From: Dehalococcoidia bacterium
Lineage (GTDB): Bacteria; Chloroflexota; Dehalococcoidia; DSTF01; JACRBR01
DNA length: 42,010 bases
NCBI GenBank assembly: GCA_040902535.1
Contig: JBBDXD010000014.1
Coordinates: forward strand, 1 to 42,010
Direction of reading: 5' to 3'
Below the pieces are notes generated by a model. That model made no database searches and was not told where the DNA came from. It saw only the letters and a program-made list of their open reading frames with translations. Of this stretch, positions 36,943-41,980 are shown piece after piece. Within the stretch, counting starts at the first letter, position 1, and the number at the start of each line of letters is the position of its first letter. The translations under genes and the position numbers were made by a program.

Positions 36943-36956
36943 GGGTGCTAGCACCG
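36943..36956. promoter_or_regulatory. GGGTG-N4-CACCG dyad upstream of the sensor gene
   Basis: GGGTGCTAGCACCG, whose core GGTGCTAGCACC is a perfect palindrome, ends 17 bases before the sensor ATG. It matches the dyads upstream of the two tandem archaellin genes. It is flanked by AGGGG-TTTCG-CCCCT (36919-36933) and CGACG-ATAGATA-CGTCG (36955-36971), which could fold as RNA hairpins next to the start codon. Confidence 0.55.
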
Positions 36957-36973
36957 ACGATAGATACGTCGTT

Positions 36974-39592
36974 ATGGGAGCAACAGGCGCCCCTCAACTG
37001 TCACAGGATGGCGACGGTGACGCTCGCGTTGGCGGGAGGCTGGCGCTCGCCTCCAGGTGGCGGCTTCGTGCAGGGCTGCATCGTCCGTCGTCCCTCGTAG
37101 TCGCCGCTACTGTCGTCTGCCTGGCAGTTGGGTTCGTCGCAGTTCTGACGTACTTCGGCGCGCGCGCTTTCACGAGCCGGGCCGCCGATCAGCGGGCCGC
37201 CGAAGAGGCTGCGTCGTTCGCCATGCACAGCTCGCTCCTTGCGACCGGCGATGCCTTCAACGGCTATCTGCAGATCCTGCGCTACTCGGAAGATCCGGCG
37301 CTCCGATCGCGCGCCGCCTCGCCCGAGGCGCGACGGAATGCAATGCAGCAGTTGCTCTGGCTGAACACGAACAAAATGGCTGTTCTCGCCGTCGCGGACC
37401 GCTCGGGGCTGGTGCTCGAGAGCACGGACGGATCGATCCAAAGCGTGCGAGGGAGCGCGGCCTTCAACGAGTCGCGCGCGAACTTGGGGCCCGCTAACTC
37501 GGACATCGTGTTGCCTGAGGGGGGCGAGCGTGGTTATGTCGAGTATAGTGCCCCGCTGCGCGATCCCGATGGAACCGTGTGGGGCTTCCTGTACGCGCGT
37601 GCCGAACCGCAGGTCCTCTGGAGCGACACGCTCAACGCCTCCATCGATGGCGGCCACAACGTCATCATCAACAGCGAGGGCGTTTTCTCAGCGGGTGTCC
37701 CCGACGAATTGCTGAGGCAGCCGTGGAGTGGTTCGACCCTGGGGAACGGCAGTGTGCGAGCAGAAATCGCCGGCGTCGAAGCGATTTGCGGGCTCGGCGC
37801 CATCGGCAGAGACACGCAGATCGACCACGGCTGGTTCGTGGCCTCGTGCTTGCCTGCGTCCCTGATCCAGGTGGAAGCCGGGCGGGCGCTCGGGAACCAG
37901 GGTCAGATCACGATTGCCGGCGCCGTGCTGGCAGTTGTCATCGCGATCGGCCTTCTGCGTATCGCGCTCGGCTCGCCCGCGCCGCCTGCAGTCGCGCAGC
38001 ATCCCGATGAGATGGAGGACGCCGACGCGCCATTTGAAGTGGAGGAAGGCGGCCTAGCCGCGGAAACGCACGCCGTGATCGAAGCACCGGAGGCGTCGCC
38101 GGGTGAACCGGAAGCCGGCCCGGCGGAACCCGCAGCACCCATCGTCGTTATCGCAGACGTCGACGCACTGGCCGTGATGGACGCGTACGAGCGCCGCAAC
38201 GCGCTGCTCTCGAACGAGCTGCGAGAGAGCATTCAGGCACGCCTGATGATCGCCGTCACGCAGGCCGAGGAGGCCTACAACCTCAGTGCCACGGATCCGG
38301 ACCGGGCGATCGCGTTGCATCGGGCGGCGATGGATGAACTCGAGTCAGTGCGTGAACGCGGGTTGCGCGGCATGGGCCAGGAGTTGCACCCGAGCCTTGT
38401 GCGGCTCGGACTTCCGGGCGCGCTCCGGTCGCTCAAAAAGGAGTTCGCGGACCGTGTCACGATCGACCTCCAGGTGGATGCGAACGTCGACGGGGCGTCC
38501 AGTCGCGGGGGCAGGGTCACCATCGACAACAGGCTGCGGCTCATCGTGTACCGCGTCATCCGCGATGCGGTCCGGACTGCGTACGCCGGTCGTGCAGACA
38601 GCGTCACGATTGCGATCCAGCGAGACGGCCTCGAGATCACTGCTGCCGTGACCTCGAAGCTGTCGGGCGGCGACGCGGACGCTGCACGTGAAACACTCCT
38701 GGCAGGGGAGGTGGCGCTGAGGGCGTTCGGCGGCAGCCTGACGGTCGACACCGAGGGCGCGCTACGCGTCATCGCGCGCGTGCTCGCGCCTAACGTCGCG
38801 CAGCCTGAGCCACTGATAAGCGCGCGGACGGAGGACGACGACGCCATCGTCGCGCAAGGCACCCTGCATGCCGATTCAACTGCCAGCCGGATCGAAGACG
38901 ATCTCCAGGCCACCGCGCACGAACTCGCCTCCACAGTCGACATCCGGTTCGTGTCCACGGCGGATTCCGCTTCCCTGCGTCCGGCGGATGAGCTCTGCAT
39001 AGCGATGATCGACGTACTACGAGTGGCGGCCGCAGGATTCAGCGAAGCCGGCGCGAACACCTGCGATGCTTCGCTCAAGCTCGAACACGATGCGGGTGAA
39101 CTGAGGATCAGCGCCCGCACGCTTCTGAGCATGGAGCGCCTCGACGATATCCGTCAGCGCGGGGAACAGGCCGGCTGCTCCATCTCGATCGCGCGCGATG
39201 CATCCGGCATGTCGATCGCGCTGAGATTCGATCTGCTGCCTCAGCCCCGGCCGGCCATTGTGCGCTTCGCGCTGCCCGAAGACGAGCCCAGCGTCATTCC
39301 CGTCTCCGAACCCCCGCCCTATCTCGCCCCCGTGCTGCCGGCCACGGCCGTCACGTTTCGCATCCCCGACGGCGGGGCACTGTTCGAGTCGATGGACGAA
39401 GCGGCTGGGATGCCGGTGGCGGCGGTGGACGATGTCCTGCCGAGCGTCGTCCAGGTGTCGTCGCTTGCCGAGGTCATCCCCGCCGATGCGGATGCCGTCG
39501 AAGGCGAACCGTCGGAAGCAGACGCTGAGGTTGACGCGACCGCGCTCGGTGACGGCGATGGGCGACGCTCGCCGGACGAGGACGCGGCGTAG
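36974..39592 (+). CDS. Membrane sensor resembling a degenerate histidine kinase
   Basis: From ATG 36974 (no clear ribosome site; the longer frame runs antisense to mrfA) the protein has 872 aa. Transmembrane helices lie at about 41-62 and 312-332. They enclose an extracytoplasmic sensor of some 245 residues, probably Cache/PAS-like. An acidic Ala/Pro/Glu linker leads to a HisKA_3-like helix with GQELHPSLVRLGL (His472). The following ATPase-like region keeps IVYRVIRDAV, but the N-box Asn is Thr and no DxG motif is seen. A second similar region lies at about 635-765. ATP binding is doubtful. Convergent with the regulator gene next door, it is its likely partner. Confidence 0.7.
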   Translation: MGATGAPQLSQDGDGDARVGGRLALASRWRLRAGLHRPSSLVVAATVVCLAVGFVAVLTYFGARAFTSRAADQRAAEEAASFAMHSSLLATGDAFNGYLQILRYSEDPALRSRAASPEARRNAMQQLLWLNTNKMAVLAVADRSGLVLESTDGSIQSVRGSAAFNESRANLGPANSDIVLPEGGERGYVEYSAPLRDPDGTVWGFLYARAEPQVLWSDTLNASIDGGHNVIINSEGVFSAGVPDELLRQPWSGSTLGNGSVRAEIAGVEAICGLGAIGRDTQIDHGWFVASCLPASLIQVEAGRALGNQGQITIAGAVLAVVIAIGLLRIALGSPAPPAVAQHPDEMEDADAPFEVEEGGLAAETHAVIEAPEASPGEPEAGPAEPAAPIVVIADVDALAVMDAYERRNALLSNELRESIQARLMIAVTQAEEAYNLSATDPDRAIALHRAAMDELESVRERGLRGMGQELHPSLVRLGLPGALRSLKKEFADRVTIDLQVDANVDGASSRGGRVTIDNRLRLIVYRVIRDAVRTAYAGRADSVTIAIQRDGLEITAAVTSKLSGGDADAARETLLAGEVALRAFGGSLTVDTEGALRVIARVLAPNVAQPEPLISARTEDDDAIVAQGTLHADSTASRIEDDLQATAHELASTVDIRFVSTADSASLRPADELCIAMIDVLRVAAAGFSEAGANTCDASLKLEHDAGELRISARTLLSMERLDDIRQRGEQAGCSISIARDASGMSIALRFDLLPQPRPAIVRFALPEDEPSVIPVSEPPPYLAPVLPATAVTFRIPDGGALFESMDEAAGMPVAAVDDVLPSVVQVSSLAEVIPADADAVEGEPSEADAEVDATALGDGDGRRSPDEDAA

Positions 39593-39670
39593 CGGTACGG
39601 CCAAACGGGTCTCGGATGCGGTTGCAGTGGGGCTTGGTAAGCAACGGGCGCGAGACGGGCCGCGGTGAAG

Positions 39671-40387
39671 TCAGGCTGCCTTGCGGCTTCGTGCCTCGGG
39701 TTGTGCCTCGTCGGATTCGTCGGACGTGCCCAGCGTTTCCTGCAGGTACAGCAGGACAGCCTTCACGCGCGGGTGTGCGGCATTGTCACGGCTGAGGTTG
39801 AGCTGTCCGAAGATGGCGTTGATGTGATTCTCAACGGACTTCTCTTCGAGGACCAGCGAACGGGCGATAGCGGCGTTGTTGTACCCCTTCGCCATGAGCG
39901 AGAGCACTTCGAGCTGCCGCCTGGTGAGCGCCGAGAGACGGGTTTCGCGTCGCCCGAGGCTCTCGACGACAAGCGGATCCAATACGACGAGGCCCATCGC
40001 CGCGCCATCGATGGCCCGCACCAGCGTTGCCACGTCAGTCACCGACTGCCGTAGTAAGTACGACCAGCCAGCAGCTCGGAATGCGGGTAGCGCGGCCAGG
40101 GTGCGGCGGTCCGGGCGTTCGCCAAGGAAGACGATGCGCGAGCCGGCCTTCGCGCCGGAGATTGACTGCGCAATCCTCAATGCGTCGTGCTCACTCTCGG
40201 CATCGAGGCCGATGAGCGAGACGTCGGCGCGCTCGCTCGACGCCATGCGCATTGCCTCGGCGGCATCACCCGTCGCGCCGACGAGCAGGAGCCGAGGCTC
40301 GCTCGAAAGCACGGTGCGCAGCATGTCGCGAAGGAGGCCATCGGCCTCGATCACCAGGACGCGGATGCGGTTGTCTTGCTTATCCAT
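39671..40387 (-). CDS. NarL/LuxR-family regulator with degenerate receiver
   Basis: 238 aa from ATG 40387. Residues 8-128 have the receiver fold, but all conserved functional positions differ from NarL. The acidic pair is Glu14-Ala15 (IEADG), the phospho-Asp is Gly60 (SLIGLD), the Ser/Thr is Gly89, and the Lys is Arg113 (YLLRQ). Residues 150-217 form an intact LuxR-type helix-turn-helix (LTRRQLEVLSLMAKGYNNAAIA, broken by one turn, then KSVENHINAIFGQL). It should therefore bind DNA without ordinary phosphorylation control. It is divergent from an archaellin gene and convergent with the sensor. Confidence 0.85.
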   Translation of the reverse strand: MDKQDNRIRVLVIEADGLLRDMLRTVLSSEPRLLLVGATGDAAEAMRMASSERADVSLIGLDAESEHDALRIAQSISGAKAGSRIVFLGERPDRRTLAALPAFRAAGWSYLLRQSVTDVATLVRAIDGAAMGLVVLDPLVVESLGRRETRLSALTRRQLEVLSLMAKGYNNAAIARSLVLEEKSVENHINAIFGQLNLSRDNAAHPRVKAVLLYLQETLGTSDESDEAQPEARSRKAA

Positions 40388-40497
40388 GCCTACCTGAGCA
40401 ATTGTCGGCCCACGCGGCTTCGCCCACATAAGGGTGTTCGCTGATTCTCCCCGTTCCTGCGAAGGCTGAGGATGCGTTTCGCGGCAAGTGGCCGTAT

Positions 40498-40570
40498 GGG
40501 TGCAGGCACCCAAGGTCGGATGGGTGGCATCACCGTGCGGCTCCTGGGTGCTGATCACGACCTTAATACA
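40498..40570. promoter_or_regulatory. Dyad array and promoter-like element between regulator and archaellin
   Basis: TGGGTG occurs at 40497, 40521 and 40545, exactly 24 bases apart. The first two open clear dyads, GGGTGCAGGCACCC (40498-40511) and GGGTGGCATCACCG (40522-40535); the third is partial. ACGACCTTAATACA at 40557-40570 begins 35 bases after the second dyad and 66 before the archaellin ATG. The tandem archaellin gene has the same arrangement. The array also lies in front of the regulator gene and may autoregulate it. Confidence 0.6.
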
Positions 40571-40622
40571 GGTGCATGAAGCGCCTGAGCGATGCATGCG
40601 ACCGCATGGAGGCGACACGCGG

Positions 40623-41201
40623 ATGCACACCCGCAACCTGATCCGAAGACTGCGCCAGGAACACGGCATCACCGGCCTTGAGACGGCGATCGTCCTCATC
40701 GCCTTCATCACGGTGTCGGCTGTCTTCGCGTTCGTCGTGCTCAGCACCGGCCTCTTCAGCGCGGAGCGAGGGCGGGAAGCAGTGTTCGCCGGCCTGTCGA
40801 AGACGCGCGGCTCGATCACGTTGACCGGTGGCATCCTGGCGACGTCCGACCAGACGGAGATCACGGACCTGACGTTCTCGGTCGTGCTCGCTGCGGGCGG
40901 CGACTCTGTCAGCATTGATCCCGCGGCATCGAACGGCCGCACGGTGATCAGCTACATCGACAGCGCGATCGCCGATCCCGATCTCGAGTACACGGTAACG
41001 GCGGTGGTCGGGAACGCGGACAGCGTGTTAGGACCGGGAGAGATCATGGAGGTTGGCATCGACCTCACGCAGAATGCGCAGATCTCCCTTGGCACAAACG
41101 ACACCTTCACGCTGGAGATCAAGCCGCCCTCCGGGTCGTACCTCGTCGTGCGGCGGACCACGCCGGCATCTATCTCCGACACAATCATCGATTTGAACTA
41201 A
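40623..41201 (+). CDS. Archaellin (archaeal-type flagellin), first tandem copy
   Basis: 192-aa filament subunit. ATG 40623 lies ten bases after GGAGG; earlier in-frame starts would extend through the regulatory array. The leader is MHTRNLIRRLRQEHG (15 aa), and predicted cleavage leaves ITGLETAIVLIAFITV as the start of the mature helix. The globular part follows the archaellin pattern, with LAAGGDSVSIDP and KPPSGSYLVVRR. It is the most divergent of the three copies (FSAERGREAVFAGLSKTR in the helix). There are no cysteines. A prepilin-type peptidase and an archaellum motor must be encoded elsewhere. Confidence 0.9.
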   Translation: MHTRNLIRRLRQEHGITGLETAIVLIAFITVSAVFAFVVLSTGLFSAERGREAVFAGLSKTRGSITLTGGILATSDQTEITDLTFSVVLAAGGDSVSIDPAASNGRTVISYIDSAIADPDLEYTVTAVVGNADSVLGPGEIMEVGIDLTQNAQISLGTNDTFTLEIKPPSGSYLVVRRTTPASISDTIIDLN

Positions 41202-41223
41202 CCAGTCCCTTGATCCTCACAAC

Positions 41224-41255
41224 GCGGCGCCCTTGACTCACCGAGCAGGCGCCGC
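41224..41255 (+). terminator. Hairpin between the two tandem archaellin genes
   Basis: GCGGCGCC (41224-41231) pairs perfectly with GGCGCCGC (41248-41255) across a 16-base loop. No T-run follows, so it may be a weak terminator or an mRNA 3'-end stabiliser. Confidence 0.35.
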
Positions 41256-41276
41256 CGTTCGCCGCGATACGCGCGT

Positions 41277-41348
41277 GGGCGCTCACACCCACGCAAATCG
41301 GGTGCGCGTACCGTGAGAACTTCTCCTAGGGAGAACGACCTTTATCAC
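41277..41348. promoter_or_regulatory. Dyad pair and promoter-like element of the second tandem archaellin
   Basis: GGGCGCTCACACCC (41277-41290) and GGGTGCGCGTACCG (41300-41313) are 23 bases apart. They match, in order, the two dyads of the first archaellin gene, each with one departure. ACGACCTTTATCAC at 41335-41348 again begins 35 bases after the second dyad and 64 before the ATG. Between them TTCTCC-TAG-GGAGAA (41321-41335) is a further perfect inverted repeat. Confidence 0.6.
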
Positions 41349-41398
41349 GTAGGGGAATACACGAACCGATGGGTCTCCCCTCCCAGGAGGTGTTAGTC

Positions 41399-41980
41399 AT
41401 GAACCGAGTCAAGCAGTTCGTGCACAGACTGCGCAACGAGCGCGGCATCACGGGCCTCGAGACGGCAATCGTCCTCATCGCGTTTGTGGTCGTGGCAGCG
41501 GTGTTCGCCTTTGTTGTGCTCAGCACGGGCCTCTTCAGTTCGGAGCGAGGCAAGGAAGCAGTCTATGCCGGTCTGGCGAAGACACGCGGCTCGATGTCGT
41601 TGACCGGCGGCATCATCGCCGACTCCAACGGCACGTCGATCACCGATCTTCGGTTTGGCCTGACGCTTGCGGCCGGCGGCGACTCGGTGAACCTGGACTC
41701 GACAGACGCATCGAACCGCACCGTGATTTCTTATGTCGATGAGACGGTGTTCACGAACACGATGGACTACACCGCGACCGAGGTGCTCGGCGATGGCGAT
41801 CTGCTGCTTGAGCAAGGGGAGCTCGTGCAAATCGACATCGACATGGCAGCCGAATGCGGCTGCACAATCACCGAGAACTTCAGCTTCACGCTGGAGCTGA
41901 AGCCGCCGACGGGCAGCTACCTGGTGATCCAGCGGCTGACTCCGGCGTCACTGGCAGAAAGCATTATCGACCTCAACTAG
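41399..41980 (+). CDS. Archaellin (archaeal-type flagellin), second tandem copy
   Basis: 193 aa from ATG 41399, eight bases after GGAGG; an in-frame ATG ten codons upstream precedes the ribosome site and is rejected. Leader MNRVKQFVHRLRNERG (16 aa), then mature ITGLETAIVLIAFVVV and TGLFSSERGKEAVYAGLAKT, nearly identical to the copy at 1974. The globular part has LAAGGDSVNLDST and KPPTGSYLVIQRLTPAS. Unlike the other copies it has a Cys-Gly-Cys near residue 153. Two differing archaellins side by side suggest major and minor filament subunits, as in archaea. Confidence 0.9.
   Translation: MNRVKQFVHRLRNERGITGLETAIVLIAFVVVAAVFAFVVLSTGLFSSERGKEAVYAGLAKTRGSMSLTGGIIADSNGTSITDLRFGLTLAAGGDSVNLDSTDASNRTVISYVDETVFTNTMDYTATEVLGDGDLLLEQGELVQIDIDMAAECGCTITENFSFTLELKPPTGSYLVIQRLTPASLAESIIDLN

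Follow-up and report, generated by a model that had tools for sequence, protein, structure and literature searches.

When a motility machine crosses from one domain of life to another, how is it integrated into the circuitry of its new host? In 2025 the bacterial archaellum was shown to be functional, and its expression shifts with conditions; no described regulator was found in the literature searched. We addressed this question in the window, which covers positions 1–42,010 of contig C14 of the 3.18 Mb genome of an uncultured Dehalococcoidia bacterium (G000), at a locus where a gene for a membrane sensor and a gene for a LuxR-type regulator lie beside tandem archaellin genes. The locus supplies a candidate regulator, sensor and DNA operator for the bacterial archaellum. 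Judging from sequences and structural models, we consider it probable that the regulator acts on the archaellum independently of phosphorylation and that the sensor would gate it by touching it directly. The relatives named below are Dehalococcoidia/Chloroflexi metagenome genomes.

A sensor and a regulator beside archaellum genes

The preliminary description had placed a sensor-regulator pair beside tandem archaellins, and these genes were found at the positions described, the regulator separating the sensor from the archaellins and being divergent from archaellin 1 (Table 1). The archaellins of the window open a longer archaellum cluster. Beyond the window end the array continues with two more archaellins, arlC/D-like, arlG, arlF and arlJ genes, after which come a small protein and an amidase. 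The matches to ArlJ (1e-134), ArlG (3.6e-11) and ArlF (weak) all fell under the NCBIfam cut-offs. The arlH and arlI genes are unlinked to the cluster and are located on contig C18. The window genome carries all the components by which a bona fide archaellum locus is recognised, namely archaellins, ArlJ, the stator proteins ArlF/ArlG and ArlH/ArlI.

Loss of phosphotransfer residues in both partners

The sensor was claimed to have degraded ATPase regions, and alignment revealed which residues are missing. Canonical histidine kinases of other Dehalococcoidia keep the motifs LHGSVQNRL, EEALTN and NGQGF and lie beside a response regulator with intact DD/D/K residues, whereas in the six aligned sensors of the window genome's family LHGSVQNRL reads LRESIQARL, the phosphorylated His is replaced by Arg, and the N box and G1 box are gone. 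The sensor residues of a canonical two-component system are absent. No HisKA_3 or HATPase match was obtained with Pfam for the window sensor at E≤1, nor any HATPase_c match for three family sensors at E≤10, while a canonical relative kinase used as control scored 1.1e-11. The fold nevertheless persists: the AlphaFold2 model of the cytoplasmic part (predicted local distance difference test, pLDDT, 75.1) had DesK as its top Foldseek match (E 1.5e-9, with a template-modelling score of only 0.4–0.5) and displayed the HPK7/DesK-like combination of a dimerisation and histidine-phosphotransfer (DHp) domain with an ATPase-like domain. A match to MctS was weak (5.7e-5), and the sensor of G191 has a further, weaker ATPase-like module after the first. 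The extracytoplasmic part gave only a weak dCache_1 match in Pfam, under the cut-off. Its model (pLDDT 84.3) showed a tandem Cache fold between two transmembrane helices, resembling the ligand-binding domains of amino-acid chemoreceptors and DctB; the top Foldseek matches were PctA/PctB, Mlp37 and DctB, at E about 1e-10 to 1e-9.

The regulator had likewise been described as having a residue-poor receiver. Its GerE domain scored 8.2e-12, over the Pfam cut-off, and its receiver matched Response_reg at 0.0041, under the cut-off, compared with 5.5e-22 for a canonical relative regulator taken as control. It matched the VraR and NarL structures along most of its length (phmmer), and combines a receiver fold with a GerE helix-turn-helix (HTH) domain as NarL/FixJ regulators do. 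In all six family regulators with an N-terminus the phosphoacceptor is Gly, the acidic pair is E-x and the Lys has become Arg; the Ser/Thr position is changed as well. The protein is a receiver homolog without a phosphorylatable Asp, that is, a pseudo-receiver, and the Asp, acidic pair and Lys of a canonical receiver are not kept. It is improbable that phosphate still serves the pair by some non-standard route or that another kinase phosphorylates the regulator elsewhere. The regulator does keep a receiver-like domain, one acidic residue of the pair and an Asp two residues after the lost phosphoacceptor; that Asp, however, corresponds in the alignment to a Glu/Asp which canonical relatives carry after the true site, every one of the receiver positions listed above is changed, and the sensor has lost its own phosphotransfer residues throughout the alignment.

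A tree of 54 regulators placed the window family beside its sister family f3, with canonical regulators next. The f3 regulators keep the Asp and are also divergent from archaellins; the canonical regulators nearest to both families lie mostly beside a kinase gene and not beside archaellins. A separate second clade of archaellin-linked regulators, from other families, has also lost the Asp (to Gly or Ser). Well-supported branches force at least two independent losses of the Asp, and the tree needs only two. Sequence comparison indicates that the sensor and the regulator both descend from one canonical two-component pair and that their phosphotransfer residues were lost in the same family.

Tandem dyads at archaellum promoters

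We also found that the shared DNA dyads of the preliminary description were non-random in place. At the locus they have the form GGGTGC-NN-GCACCC, with tandem copies 23–24 bp apart. The exact sequence GGGTGCNNGCACCS occurs at five places in the genome, three of them in the locus (36943, 40498 and C14:42133), and the remaining sites, C3:121551 and C14:126552, lie near genes without an evident motility role. When one mismatch was allowed, there was no genome-wide excess over the reversed control (29/32 versus 22/33), and a genome-wide regulon defined by single dyads was rejected. A loose tandem pattern was present at eight places in the 18 genomes of the order, of which seven were archaellin promoters (two in G000 and one each in G016, G169, G191, G085 and G158); the reversed pattern gave none. 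The tandem dyad was absent from the eight genomes of families f2 and f4, which are without an ortholog of the regulator and four of which have archaellins. A position weight matrix (PWM) built from nine sites of families f1 and f3 also scored family promoters on which it had not been trained, at 30.8 bits in G169:C26 and 14.8 bits in G191:C172 (0/60 shuffles each). Furthermore, a dyad preceded the unlinked arlH in six of the seven family arlH genes examined (G137, G231, G169, G016, G070 and G212). Sites both at archaellin promoters and before the unlinked arlHI operon indicate that the link exceeds proximity, and they support the proposal of a bacterial regulator apparently adapted to an archaeal-type filament.

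Because these operators follow the regulator, including to the unlinked motor operon, the regulator is a good candidate for the transcription factor of the archaellum in this lineage. It would bind, as a dimer or tetramer, the tandem dyads upstream of the archaellins, whose spacing is about two helical turns, and would bind single dyads upstream of the sensor and arlHI. It is most likely an activator, because the dyads lie where activators of ordinary bacterial promoters bind. The opposite possibility, that a repressor keeps the archaellins off until the sensor takes it from the DNA, is rather unlikely. Tandem sites near promoters could block RNA polymerase, and the third dyad before archaellin 1 and the dyad at the sensor promoter lie near the presumed −10 element; against this, the arlH dyads end, where measured, about 18 bp before GCCGAYAA, which is the usual position of an activator in ordinary bacterial promoters, and most NarL-family regulators are activators.

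Distribution of the three genes

Whether the three gene types keep company in related genomes had been proposed as a check, with an inconsistent pattern counting against the idea. The pattern proved consistent: in the family, archaellins and sensor are present in 8/8 genomes and the regulator in 7/8, the sensor being absent from the ten other genomes of the order. No regulator was found in G231, which is 76% complete and fragmented. The full three-gene order is seen in four family genomes (G000, G137, G169 and G191), and the sensor is next to archaellins in six. Outside the family, archaellins without this sensor are common, several other Dehalococcoidia families have another NarL-type regulator, likewise divergent, in the corresponding position, and the pair exists in canonical form in other Dehalococcoidia, away from archaellins.

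In the class, PF01917 was detected in 53 of 294 genomes, and archaellin arrays were examined in 47 of these (G058, G061, G105, G185, G218 and G230 were left out). A full NarL-type regulator lies at most 2.5 kb upstream of archaellins in 20 of the 47, divergent in 17 and on the same strand in three (G005, G012 and G145). Eighteen were identified by script, and those of G000 and G137, hidden by over-long or partial open frames, by reading. A regulator cut by the contig end was seen in G131 and G106, and the other 25 genomes showed no regulator upstream of archaellins, the contig ending first in some of them. The Asp is lost in 12 of the 20 archaellin-linked regulators and kept in eight. That an ordinary regulator and a decaying sensor happen to neighbour the archaellins by chance is barely credible. 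It fits the fact that not all family members keep the three genes adjacent; yet no more than 12 GerE genes of the window genome exceed the cut-off, about one per 265 kb, for comparison with the 20 of 47 genomes above, the sensor is kept in every family genome with best matches in relatives 40–57% identical, and the sites are conserved.

Several observations weigh against a contact-gated regulator acting at these sites. The strict tandem pattern is missing from four of the eight family genomes: G070, G137 and G212 show only degenerate or single dyads, and the archaellin promoters of G231 gave no site in the PWM scan. The arlH of G000 itself has only a degenerate dyad, and one tandem site, G191:C319:4496-4530 (L192), lies at no identifiable archaellum gene, the sole such case in the 18 genomes. 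The sensor and regulator are not always adjacent, since beside archaellins G016 keeps the regulator only and G070 and G212 the sensor only. In addition, sister family f3 has the same sites and an Asp-intact regulator without the sensor, and the sensor is therefore not essential to the relation between regulator and sites.

These last points bear on a possible, if unlikely, alternative, in which the regulator controls the archaellins at the dyads, set by its own expression level, and the sensor is not its partner and acts otherwise at the membrane. In f3 the regulator, the sites and a divergent archaellin do without the sensor, and in G070/G212 and G016 the regulator gene is not linked to that of the sensor. 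The regulator promoter has a sigma-28-like −10 element, and f3 regulator promoters read TAAA-N15-(G/C)CCGATAA (G085, L015:9234-9261; G158, L016:9468-9495). Against it stand the dyad in the sensor's own promoter (G000 and G169), the position of the sensor beside archaellins in most family genomes, and the apparent origin of both proteins from one canonical pair with losses in the same family.

Proposed mechanism and relation to known systems

Loss of the chemistry in both partners, retention of the sensor in all eight family genomes and conservation of the folds point to contact-based control and not to decay. We propose that the dCache domain of the sensor would bind a ligand outside the cell and that the sensor, a scaffold resembling DesK but devoid of kinase chemistry, would probably hold or release the regulator by direct contact, the regulator being no longer driven by phosphorylation. 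A wider scenario, which we regard as evenly poised, is that the Chloroflexota archaellum, gained from archaea, was put under NarL-type regulators more than once and that the phosphosite was shed twice; the family pair would then have become a phosphate-free dCache ligand switch gating a two-site operator for archaellins and the unlinked motor ATPase genes.

The pair resembles DesK-DesR and other NarL/HPK7-type systems in having a membrane sensor with a DesK-like DHp/ATPase fold, a NarL-type GerE regulator (the class of DesR) and dyad sites. Unlike those systems, it lacks the phospho-His, the ATP-binding motifs and the phosphoacceptor Asp, and its target is an archaeal-type filament. Like NblR, WhiI and CmrT, as presented in the portions of PMC12632262 available to us, the regulator is a DNA-binding protein with a receiver without a phosphorylatable Asp, and would have to work independently of phosphorylation; in contrast to them, it has a dedicated sensor that has itself degenerated, and the two proteins go back to a pair that is still canonical in related bacteria. 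The same portions state that experimentally characterised pseudo-receivers are greatly enriched for orphans. A 2025 review, in its available part, calls pseudo-receiver switching a mystery, and the series from a canonical pair, through an Asp-intact regulator at archaellin sites, to two disarmed partners offers natural material for studying it.

The archaellum of Chloroflexota described in PMC12488501 and PMC10444878 shares its filament and motor genes, and its phylum, with the one studied here. The available portions of these papers cover machinery, structure and gene transfer, and contain no transcription factor, sensor or promoter site for bacterial archaella; nor did the accessible parts of the literature searched, including PMC13319060 and PMC12632262, give a transcription factor, sensor or operator. 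The archaeal regulators EarA, ArnA/ArnB and CsmR have the same role, transcriptional control of archaellum genes, but as described in the accessible text they differ in name and domains (FHA and vWA for ArnA/ArnB) from the bacterial NarL-type regulator found here.

Table 1. Coordinates of the sensor, regulator, archaellins and DNA sites (window positions unless a contig is given)
Feature	Position	Strand	Basis
Sensor, membrane pseudo-histidine kinase, 872 aa: transmembrane helix 1, dCache, transmembrane helix 2, acidic linker, DHp-like, degenerate ATPase-like domain	36974..39592	+	Open reading frame, Pfam, alignment, models
Transmembrane helix 1, extracytoplasmic dCache with invariant Cys pair (ICxL...ASCLP), transmembrane helix 2	37085..37987	+	AlphaFold2, Foldseek, invariant columns
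DHp and catalytic-ATPase fold without phospho-His (Arg instead), N box and G1 box	38156..38893	+	Alignment, AlphaFold2, Foldseek
Regulator of NarL/LuxR type: GerE HTH and pseudo-receiver (Gly for the phosphoacceptor Asp, E-A as acidic pair, Arg for Lys)	39671..40387	-	Pfam, alignment
Sigma-28-like −10, GCCGACAA, 14 nt before regulator start	40402..40409	-	Resemblance to sigma-28 consensus
Dyad GGGTGCTAGCACCG before sensor; near-identical G169 site in same place	36943..36956	.	Pattern search
Dyad 1, perfect GGGTGCAGGCACCC, regulator/archaellin 1 intergenic	40498..40511	.	Pattern search
Dyad 2 before archaellin 1, 24 bp from dyad 1	40522..40535	.	Pattern search
Weaker third copy GGGTGCTGATCACG before archaellin 1	40546-40559	.	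Pattern search
Archaellin 1, divergent from regulator	40623..41201	+	PF01917 1e-20
Dyad 1 before archaellin 2	41277..41290	.	Pattern search
Dyad 2 before archaellin 2, 23 bp from dyad 1	41300..41313	.	Pattern search
Archaellin 2; array runs on past window end	41399..41980	+	PF01917 1.3e-26
Dyads before archaellin 3, past window end	C14:42133, 42156	.	Pattern search
Stand-alone archaellin of window genome	1363..1983	-	PF01917 1.1e-25; without tandem dyad upstream

Promoter elements and other archaellin-linked regulators

The −10 element of the regulator promoter was recognised by comparison with the sigma-28 consensus. CCGATAA lies upstream of the regulator in six of the seven other genomes examined, G070 having GTCGATAA instead, and the stand-alone archaellins of G137 and G016 have CTAAAG...GCCGACAA upstream (L085 near 11204 and L104 near 4731). 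In 2,256 kb, TAAA-N13-16-CCGAYA matched 13 times and the reversed control seven times. FliA/WhiG-type sigma factors were found in 17 of the 18 genomes of the order, with two in most genomes, and the 17 include all four that are without archaellins. Sigma-28 control of archaella in general is kept only as a lead because of this weak excess over the control and because the sigma factors also occur in archaellin-less genomes.

A single operator for all bacterial archaella was considered and rejected. The f1/f3-trained PWM found only a weak site in one Group II genome (G059, 15.5 bits), no convincing one was seen in f51, f2 or f4, and the near-empty scan in other regulator clades therefore leaves such an operator unsupported.

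Asp-less regulators of the second clade adjoin a membrane protein of about 100 aa (L044:9940-10245, L046:419-736, L048:8437-8850 and L017:4490-4789), for which Pfam gave DUF5658 in both of the copies scanned and which is possibly the partner of these regulators. In L049 and L065 (G012 and G145) the archaellins are preceded, on the same strand, by a canonical histidine kinase, a NarL-type regulator and a small receiver protein; here two-component genes are linked to archaellins independently. G190 has an array of six archaellins, plus others elsewhere, and a canonical NarL-type regulator (L041:3029-3760) that is divergent and 333 bp upstream; the archaellin set resembles that described for cultured SAR202 isolates and would, if G190 is that organism, offer a tractable case in a cultured lineage.

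In some archaellin genes, 5′ leaders of at least 200 nt share AAGGAGGTGGC-like blocks (C14:42861-43264 = L008, L013, L012, L058 and L055). A riboswitch or structured RNA, suggested by these long conserved leaders, was dropped because Rfam was empty, with no match in the window at gathering scores and none in five related loci at E≤0.5. Finally, a contig labelled Acetobacteraceae (L120, JAIMBG010000020.1) encodes an archaellin 61% identical to that of the window and is probably mis-binned Chloroflexota DNA.

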